64,000 nucleotides of DNA. Source: Spirochaetota bacterium. Lineage in GTDB: Bacteria; Spirochaetota; Spirochaetia; Treponematales; UBA12059. The position numbers and the translations under genes were made by a program. The notes below the pieces were generated by a model. That model searched no databases, was not told where the DNA came from, and worked only from the letters and a program-made list of their open reading frames with translations. The DNA lies in contig JAKLDN010000002.1 of the NCBI GenBank assembly GCA_022703505.1, positions 496,001-560,000 of the forward strand, written 5' to 3'. This document shows, piece by piece, positions 19,730-21,410 of the stretch (position 1 is the stretch's first letter; every line of letters starts with the position of its first letter).

Positions 19730-19759
19730 GGTATGCTCCAGTTGGCGCTATTTTCCCTC

Positions 19760-19790
19760 TGATATTTCAGTACGTCAAGTGATATTTCAG
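19760..19790 (-). promoter_or_regulatory. Promoter region with direct repeats CTGAAATATCA
   Basis: Reading on the minus strand, the 11-mer CTGAAATATCA occurs twice (19780-19790 and 19760-19770), exactly 20 bases apart. Between them lies TTGACG, which with a GAAAAT 17 bases further makes a plausible promoter for the dehydrogenase operon. The repeats thus embrace the -35 box, as expected for an activator or repressor binding two helical turns apart. Confidence 0.55.
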
Positions 19791-20445
19791 CCGTTTTCCG
19801 AAAGCGGGCGCCCGGCGTCGGGACGGGAACCGGAAAGCGTCGCGGCTTCCGGGCGGGAAGCGCCGAACGCGGGATGGGCACGGGGCGCTGCGGACCCCGG
19901 GGTCTCACTCGGTCCTCGCGCCTCTCCTGCATTAAAGCGGAAGCTTCACCTGTCATCGACGGTCATCGGCTACTCGGCGGGGCGCTGCGGAAGCGTTCGA
20001 CCCCGGGGTCCTCCGCGTCCCTTGCGGTCTTCTCCTGGTTCGGCGCTTCCCGCCTAAATTTACGAAGCTTCACGATCGACCGGCGGCGCCGGGCGCGGGG
20101 ATTTCGGAAGGCGGCTTCTCCCGGGGGGCGGGAAGCGCCGAACGCGGGATGGGAACGGACGCTGCGGGCCCCGGGGTCTCACTCGGTCCTAGGAGTTTGT
20201 TGGGCTTGCCCACCTTAATAGTAGAAAATCGCATCTATGTGATTTTTCTACTTTGCAAACTCCAAAGGAGCCGGATAATCGGGATTTTTAGCGCCTGTCG
20301 GCGCCAAAAATCCACAAGTCCGACAGGCTCCTAGGACGCTTCGCGTCGTTTGACGTAGGAATGGATCGACGTGTGCGCTATCGCGCACGGCGTCATCGCG
20401 CCCCGGGGAGAATCGAGCCGGCGGATCCGGCGGGCGGGCCCGGCT
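19791..20445. repeat. Repeat-rich non-coding block with REP-like copies
   Basis: There is no gene here. A 65-66 base unit beginning GGGCGGGAAGCGCCGAACGC occurs at 19851-19916 and again at 20126-20190 with few differences. An inverted, more diverged copy of its start lies at 20037-20054 followed by the shared GACCCCGGGGTC core near 19999-20010. From 20190 the block contains an element with imperfect terminal inverted repeats (20190-20335). The 78-bp tandem repeats begin at 20446. Confidence 0.8.
20190..20335. repeat. About 146-bp element with 20-base imperfect terminal inverted repeats
   Basis: The end sequences CTAGGAGTTTGTTGGGCTTG (20190-20209) and, on the other strand, CTAGGAGCCTGTCGGACTTG (20315-20334) match at 16 of 20 bases. 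Inside are two stem-loops: one at 20221-20251 and one with 14-base arms at 20282-20295/20300-20313. The segment TCCGACAGGCTCCTAG also occurs at 27458-27473, overlapping the stop codon of the beta-barrel gene. Confidence 0.6.
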
Positions 20446-20655
20446 TACAACCGTGTCCCCATCTGGTTGCCCGACTCGTATCTGCGCAGGCCCGCCCGGG
20501 GCTTCCTGGCCGGGCGCGCCTGCTACAACCGTGTCCCCACCTGATTTCCCGATTCGTACCGTCGCAGGCCCGCCCGGGGCTTCCTGGCCGGGCGCGCCTG
20601 CTACAACCGTGTCCCCATCTGGTTGCCCGACTCGTATCTGCGCAGGCCCGCCCGG
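20446..20655 (-). repeat. 78-bp tandem repeat copied from the 3' end of the ABC-2 permease gene
   Basis: Units run at 20446-20523, 20524-20601 and 20602-20655 (partial), with a period of exactly 78 bases. The partial unit is the last 17 codons plus most of the stop codon (its final base is 20601) of the permease gene; the other two lie beyond the gene and each still encodes the same C-terminal residues and a stop. The outer two copies of this coding segment are identical except for the last base of the stop codon. The middle copy differs at seven bases, six of them silent. Confidence 0.85.
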
Positions 20656-21410
20656 AACAGCCCATACGCCCCGCCGGCGTAGACGGCCGCCACTCCCAGC
20701 AGAACGGGCACCAGGGGCCAGTCCAAGCTCCGGTACACGGCCAGGGGGACGAAGGCGATGAATCCCGACGGAAGGATGGTATAGAAGATCCAGCGCATCC
20801 CGGAATCGAAGATGGTCTCCGGATAGAGGGAGAACGAGATCAGGAACTCCGTCACCGCCTGGGACAGGGGTCCCGCGTTGCCCAGGAAGAAGGTCAGGCT
20901 CTCGGCGGCTGAGAAGACGGCGGCGAAGATGACCGCCCCTCCCAGGGCCAGAAGGGTGAACAGGGCCAGGCGTTCGGGCCCCGTCCCCGGGAGGAAGGCC
21001 AGGACGAGGTAGCCGTAGGCCAGGTCGCCCCAGGCGGAGACGATGGTACGGGAGGCCAGGACGTTCACGAAGGGGTCCTTGGGCTGGAGGAGGTACACGT
21101 CCAGCTCGCCCCTCTGGATGATGGAGCCGAGGCTGCGGACGTTGCCCCAAAGCACGTGGGCGATCCCGAAGGAGGTCGAGGTCAGGGCCCAGATGACCAT
21201 CACGTCGGTGAACCCGTATCCTCCTACGGAGCCGGTGCGGGCGATCAGGACGGCCCAGAAGGCGGCGAAGGCGGCGTTGTTCAGCATCATGCCGAAGACC
21301 TGGATCAGGAAGGAGATCCGGTATTCGACCACCGCCTGGAGGTTCGCCGTGAAGGCCGCGGCCAGGAAGCGCAGGTAGGCCGCCGGGCGGCCGGTTCGGG
21401 GACGGTTCAT
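20601..21410 (-). CDS. ABC-2 type exporter, membrane subunit 1
   Basis: This 269-residue membrane protein has about six predicted helices and belongs to the ABC-2 permeases that pair with a second permease and one ATPase. Features include a long first cytoplasmic segment, then EYRISFLIQVFGMMLNN at the first helix, and the LLQPKDPF motif near residue 112. It follows subunit 2 by one base and is the last gene of the three-gene set. Its C-terminal codons are repeated twice downstream as 78-bp tandem units. Substrate is unknown; family members export lipids, antibiotics or polysaccharides. Confidence 0.85.
   Translation of the reverse strand: MNRPRTGRPAAYLRFLAAAFTANLQAVVEYRISFLIQVFGMMLNNAAFAAFWAVLIARTGSVGGYGFTDVMVIWALTSTSFGIAHVLWGNVRSLGSIIQRGELDVYLLQPKDPFVNVLASRTIVSAWGDLAYGYLVLAFLPGTGPERLALFTLLALGGAVIFAAVFSAAESLTFFLGNAGPLSQAVTEFLISFSLYPETIFDSGMRWIFYTILPSGFIAFVPLAVYRSLDWPLVPVLLGVAAVYAGGAYGLFRAGLRRYESGNQMGTRL

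Follow-up and report, generated by a model that had tools for sequence, protein, structure and literature searches.

Tandem copies of gene 3' ends behind a permease gene and several housekeeping genes in a spirochaete

How does the end of a protein-coding gene come to be present several times in a row behind that gene, each time with a stop codon? This question is raised by a tandem repeat in a 64,000-nucleotide stretch of DNA (hereafter called the window), which corresponds to positions 496001-560000 of contig C7 in the genome of a Spirochaetota bacterium (G000; 3.66 Mb in 14 contigs).

Layout of the permease array

The gene concerned (20601-21410, minus strand) encodes an ABC-2 type permease of 269 amino acids (Pfam ABC2_membrane_6, PF06182, E 6e-24). 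Because it lies on the minus strand, the "first copy" of its end is the right-most one. Each unit of the array comprises the last 17 codons of the gene, a stop codon and a palindromic linker. Unit U1 is the working gene end, i.e., the last 54 bases of the gene including the stop (20601-20654, minus strand). It is followed, on the same strand, by two displaced copies, U2 (20523-20576; RAGLRRYESGNQVGTRL followed by TAG) and U3 (20445-20498). Both the sequence and TRF confirmed the first-pass annotation of three units with an exact 78-base spacing (20446-20523, 20524-20601 and 20602-20679, the last one being partial); the copies are in frame with the permease gene, at a spacing of 26 codons. The other details that had been reported were also correct: U3 is identical to U1 except for the stop codon (TAA instead of TAG), and U2 shows seven base differences from U1, of which six are silent and one replaces Met by Val. 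These differences are found in six codons, five of them silently changed. The two linkers of 24 bases each (20577-20600 between U1 and U2, and 20499-20522 between U2 and U3, both read on the minus strand) are identical, as had been stated.

The first-pass annotation, which had seen the array, overlooked that its linkers contain inverted repeats, as well as its recurrence at other genes. The copied segment starts with an arm X (CCGGGCGGGCCTGC; 20642-20655 on the minus strand in the gene, recurring at 20564-20577 and 20486-20499), which is the nearly exact inverted complement of a motif X' (GCAGGCGCGCCCGG) at the start of the linker. Most of X' is held by the linker in each case (X' spans 20588-20601 and 20510-20523). 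Thus, a palindrome joins consecutive units.

The array is by far the top-scoring tandem repeat of the window (TRF score 371, versus 115 for the runner-up). When the permease end was aligned with its own downstream sequence, the score was 108, whereas random pairs of gene ends and downstream sequences did not exceed 37 (n = 2595). No paralogue of the permease gene was found in G000, and the search for a phage, plasmid or viral-contig source of the unit yielded only matches at chance level. The window contains no Rfam match, no intrinsic terminator was called in the array and the folding energy of the array RNA was not unusual (z -1.3). No integrase gene was seen at the permease locus, where the linkers are only 24 bases long.

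Sister species and other genes

The only other genome of the genus that carries the permease gene, that of a sister species (G001; 88% amino acid identity), also has the array, which by this comparison is older than the species. It comprises at least five units in G001, with the gene and one copy on contig C72 and three units at the end of contig C198; both contigs end in the array, and the far side of C198 is syntenic with the intergenic region of the window. The units are spaced by 83 and 79 bases. Only silent differences are seen in the coding part of the three units closest to the downstream flank, whether these are compared with the gene end or with each other (CTG/CTA, CGG/CGA, GTG/GTC, GGA/GGG, TTG/CTA), and the linker arm co-varies with the coding arm. 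The copy adjoining the gene contains an internal stop. Outside the genus, each of 18 permease orthologues has a single end. Between species, the permease end (87% identity) is no more diverged than the gene body (86%), so the window units provide no direct demonstration of a foreign origin. The first-pass annotation had proposed to search for the exact sequence of U2 (CGACGGTACGAATCGGGAAATCAGGTGGGG...) at permease gene ends in related genomes; it was not found at any of those in the genomes examined, among which there was also no close relative with a single-copy permease end.

To look for similar arrangements, we compared each 3' end with its own 600 downstream bases in about 1.2 Mb of G000, using composition-based gene prediction; the gene calls are simple predictions, and the genomes are mostly metagenome assemblies. 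Downstream copies of the end were found for 4 of 865 genes, namely those of the permease (score 108), proS (74), aspS (65) and groEL (38). Since the groEL score barely exceeds the random maximum of 37, this case is recognized by its repeated structure only. The copies span no more than the last 6-27 codons. Gene starts and middles showed no such local copies, except for tandem paralogues and one start lying inside the proS array. In the sample of contig C7, there were three tandem repeats of at least 30 bp beyond the permease array, one of which is the proS array. The arrays are thus not unique to the window: the same layout is found at proS, aspS and groEL in G000 and in its relatives.

The groEL copies encode MGGMDY followed by TAA, TAG or TGA, and each has its own 3' flank, often with its own terminator-like hairpin. 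They were also found in G001 and G002, in several more genera of the same family and in G056, a genome that belongs to another family. In G024, a complete, single-contig and AT-rich genome of a third family, we found four short groEL copies (GGCATGTAYTAA or GGAATGTACTAA) with third-position variation. These were recognized by reading the sequence, as no gene stood out in a score scan of 390 kb of this genome (groEL 26, controls up to 39). Copies of the aspS end were also present in G001, G004, G005, G006 and G008, and in G010 end copies were found for 2 of 216 genes (390 kb). The linkers do not belong to a dispersed element family but are specific to each locus, and a pattern search indicated that the hairpin motif between the aspS and groEL copies is rare in G000.

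Three other repeats were observed in the course of this work. A dispersed hairpin pair (ATCGMCGAAGC..GCTTCGKCGCCG and a second hairpin), which is present in the groEL and proS arrays, occurs seven times in about 1.2 Mb, versus none in shuffled sequence (C7 26135, 290292, 327907 and 233322; C1 353841 and 224487; window 39718). In groEL 3' flanks (e.g., L178, L182, L184, L186), an inverted piece of the gene end (GCCGCCCAT...) is found behind the terminator in various genera, including at loci that lack a copy of the end. On contig C1 of G000, a 103-bp direct repeat of the 3' end of a GNAT gene (166587-166689 and 168524-168626), nearly identical in its coding part and far less so in its flank, encloses two genes, one TetR-like and one nitrilase-like; the C-terminus of the nitrilase-like one is fused to the repeated end. 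This 1.9-kb insert showed no recombinase gene.

We determined if the differences between copies were distributed as expected for random substitutions. In 18 pairs of copies from four genes, which are partly non-independent, there were 102 base differences, which changed the residue in 15 codons, versus 68.6 expected under random substitution. None of 20,000 simulations gave a value as low as 15, the minimum being 51. One proS pair was read out of frame but shows zero differences, so that the totals are unaffected. Some pairs were extreme even by themselves, such as those of aspS in G005 (17 codons changed, 4 of them in the protein) and in G004 (11 and 1, respectively). Two copies that are both outside a gene, U2 of G000 and U3 of G001, differed at eight positions, all silent. 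This bias towards silent changes, also observed between non-genic copies, indicates that the copies evolved as working gene ends. Neutral drift after duplication is thus excluded as the main source of the differences.

Further evidence, on the direction of the events, came from aspS and groEL. The single aspS end of G002 (...VEKVDSSEPR*) is followed by a characteristic 3' flank. In G000, this type of C-terminus (VDSSEPR*) and its flank are found in the downstream copy, while the gene itself ends with ...VEKAESK* (EKAESK*). Comparison with the uninserted G002 locus thus shows that the native end has been pushed downstream in G000. The displaced copy is 87.5% identical to G002, close to the value for the gene body (88.7%). 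Between G000 and G001, the identity is 83% for the working ends, versus 92.5% for the bodies, but this excess divergence is modest (binomial P 0.007 on 72 bases), and 4% of the windows in the body reach it. One aspS copy is frameshifted. In five genera, the aspS units are built alike (X'-hairpin-motif-hairpin-X), and in G006 a 71-bp hairpin element is found cleanly inside an aspS end copy, without target duplication. As to groEL, the gene body of G000 is 97.6 and 96.8% identical to those of its sisters, with an abrupt change of the tail right after the DLPE codons; beyond this point, G000 has a different sequence, which resembles that of other genera. The groEL end types, as told by their 3' flanks, vary in order and number among the three species. 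On these alignments, the gene tail is shown to have been exchanged between species.

Origin of the stacked ends

These data suggest that ordinary gene tails have been repeatedly duplicated and swapped in this group. We think that the permease array is probably a stack of alternative 3' ends, generated by tandem duplication of units linked by palindromes and by recombination with diverged homologues. In a first step, a tandem duplication of the gene end would arise with the help of palindromes whose sequence matches or is complementary to the beginning of the copied stretch. Such a palindrome-assisted step is suggested by the finding of young copies, with no or few differences and with palindromes between them, for aspS in G008 and G006 and for one gene of G010, where the copy begins at the point where the palindromic repeat shares GCCGCCC with the gene. 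The nearly identical copies in other genera also show that new duplications are still arising. In a second step, units would be added or exchanged through recombination with the homologous ends of diverged relatives, the gene end serving as the region of identity; recombination with the ends of other lineages would be needed because the units are diverged yet readable. The unit in first place would provide the C-terminus of the protein, while older ends would shift downstream as readable relics. The displaced units would still read as coding because they are recent former or donor gene ends. Candidate routes for the exchange are recombination of the RecA type between the repeated ends or a recombinase that acts on the palindromes. 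The second route is favoured by the hairpin layout common to aspS units from five genera, the 71-bp hairpin element in a G006 copy and the 1.9-kb stretch between the GNAT-end repeats. The lack of any recombinase gene in the arrays argues against it, and we found none tied to them. The fact that U1 equals U3 while U2 differs also fits with local conversion between U1 and U3.

How far this applies to the window itself should be specified. The first-pass annotation had considered that the end of a diverged homologue was recombined in, or that there was a 3'-end cassette arrangement. In its general form, this proposal is supported by the silent bias, the longer array of the sister species, the displaced aspS end and the swapped groEL tail. 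It is not supported for the window locus itself, for which we found neither a donor of U2 nor a paralogue, and no polarity. The permease locus may thus be brought under the general explanation through the likeness of its structure and its silent signature.

Could slippage alone account for the arrays? The end and its palindromic linker would be duplicated during replication, after which the copies would drift and unequal crossing over would homogenize them locally, with a functional end required of each unit that comes into first place. This would explain the identical linkers, the identity of U1 and U3 and the exact period (78 and 78 bases); palindromes are also known to promote slippage, and young identical duplicates exist. 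However, a rotation that purges non-silent changes would keep the units nearly identical, whereas the observed ones differ by 13-26% with hardly any change in residues, and the differences are not blind to the reading frame, as they should be after slippage. Furthermore, exchange is required by the swap of the groEL tail and the displacement of the native aspS end. Slippage as the sole process is therefore disfavoured, and we find it rather improbable. A possible, if unlikely, alternative is that the arrays are accretions of small mobile units (roughly 80-220 bp) that use the gene end as attachment region, integrate at the 3' end, restore the frame and are moved in trans by a recombinase recognizing palindromes. 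The topology matches that of e14 in icd (see below), with an insert that restores the end, a displaced native end and mostly silent changes. The layout that is conserved among aspS units from five genera, the insertion of the 71-bp hairpin element without target duplication in G006, and the 1.9-kb stretch with its two genes between the GNAT-end repeats are all in line with such units. Against them stand the lack of an integrase or transposase between copies, the units being gene-free, the locus-specific nature of the linkers, which do not form a dispersed family, and the resemblance of the young cases to plain local duplications. In the most specific version of this idea, the units would be gene-tail cassettes, i.e., undescribed minimal mobile units that contain nothing but a palindromic site plus the final codons of the host gene. 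A dedicated recombinase, provided in trans, would move them between related spirochaetes, where they would form stacks behind housekeeping genes and bring about the exchange of C-termini. This we consider speculative and would not expect to be correct.

It could also be argued that the downstream copies are under selection, either as coding sequence (through stop readthrough or ribosome bypassing) or as a regulatory 3' region, since residues and stops are conserved and the window copies are in frame at 26-codon spacing. However, the frame is lost in the sister species with its spacings of 83 and 79 bases, which led us to reject stop readthrough; an internal stop interrupts one of the sister units and a frameshift one of the aspS copies, and the folding energy is ordinary. 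Selection of this kind is thus very improbable. An assembly error, which had been mentioned as a possibility in the first-pass annotation, hardly deserves credence. The genomes are indeed mostly assembled from metagenomes, repeats are prone to mis-assembly and the contigs of the sister species end in the array, but independently assembled species have arrays with different units, and the groEL copies are also found in a complete single-contig genome of another family (G024); the units also differ from each other.

The closest precedent is prophage e14, whose insertion into the icd gene of E. coli leaves this gene intact by supplying a 165-bp end that differs at 12 nucleotides and 2 residues, the latter being conservative changes (PMC11148124). 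As in the arrays, the end brought by the insert restores the gene, the native end is displaced on the far side and the differences are mostly silent. A repeat with a displaced native end is found at aspS by comparison with G002, while at the permease gene the repeat is present but its polarity is not fixed; the restored ends differ mostly silently from the displaced ones (15 residue changes versus 68.6 expected). In contrast to e14, there is no integrase and no element body between the repeats: the ends are separated only by a 24-base palindromic linker or, at other loci, by a few hairpins, and several ends are stacked. What sets the arrays apart is the stacking of ends with almost nothing in between; in the open-access literature, we found no prior description of such duplicated ends with stop codons behind genes. 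It is common for elements to integrate into the 3' end of a gene and to provide that end themselves (PMC3715440). Integrative and conjugative elements similarly target the 3' end of a conserved gene, which is replaced by the end of the element with conservation of function (PMC3715440), but the arrays have neither an element body nor conjugation or integration genes.

Other systems share some features with the arrays. The silent cassettes of vls in Borrelia, another spirochaete, also consist of tandem partial homologues adjoining a working locus, but they diversify the protein while the array copies preserve it, and the array targets are housekeeping genes. Antigenic variation through silent cassettes was rejected, as the copies keep the residues and the targets include GroEL, AspS and ProS, with no diversification of a surface protein. 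Integron cassettes are also short tandem units bounded by imperfect palindromes, with an order that varies among relatives; the array units differ in that they repeat the end of the upstream gene itself and lack attC core sites, and in that no integrase was seen at the locus. Inspection of the unit excluded an integron array, the attC core (RYYYAAC / GTTRRRY) being absent: GTTGTAG does not fit GTTRRRY and has no RYYYAAC partner. REP/BIME-type repeats and MITEs also place palindromic units in 3' flanks, and the hairpin pairs of the groEL and proS arrays have further copies in the genome, but the repeated part of the arrays is gene-specific coding sequence with a stop. A diversity-generating retroelement was rejected as well, since, with either copy as the template, only three of the seven differences affect an adenine.

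If the preferred explanation, stacked and exchanged gene ends, is right, the 3' ends of essential genes (those of a chaperonin, aminoacyl-tRNA synthetases and a transporter) are targets of recombination in an order of spirochaetes. Past forms of the gene end, kept in line behind the gene, would then be a readable record of tail exchange. Partial gene copies beyond a stop codon in such genomes would be neither assembly errors nor random pseudogenes. The arrays would also represent a natural experiment on harmless replacement of gene ends, and make the responsible enzyme or repair process a testable question.

Sequences beside the permease array

Three differences or features were noted next to the array. 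In G001, the permease array is separated from the conserved intergenic region by a membrane histidine-kinase-like gene (C198 6503-8023, L094). This gene is missing in the window, the difference being presumably the result of an insertion or a deletion. The intergenic sequence at 19742-20194 of the window contains many direct and inverted repeats. Its identity with the sister species is 93%, versus 86% for the neighbouring permease gene, and it has no Rfam match; it is possibly a conserved structured region. Finally, a dispersed repeat of about 148 bp (20189-20335, plus strand) adjoins the array without being part of it. Roughly 30 full or partial copies are present in G000 and several in both sisters, but it is absent from the orthologous G001 site, which suggests that it was recently inserted or is mobile.
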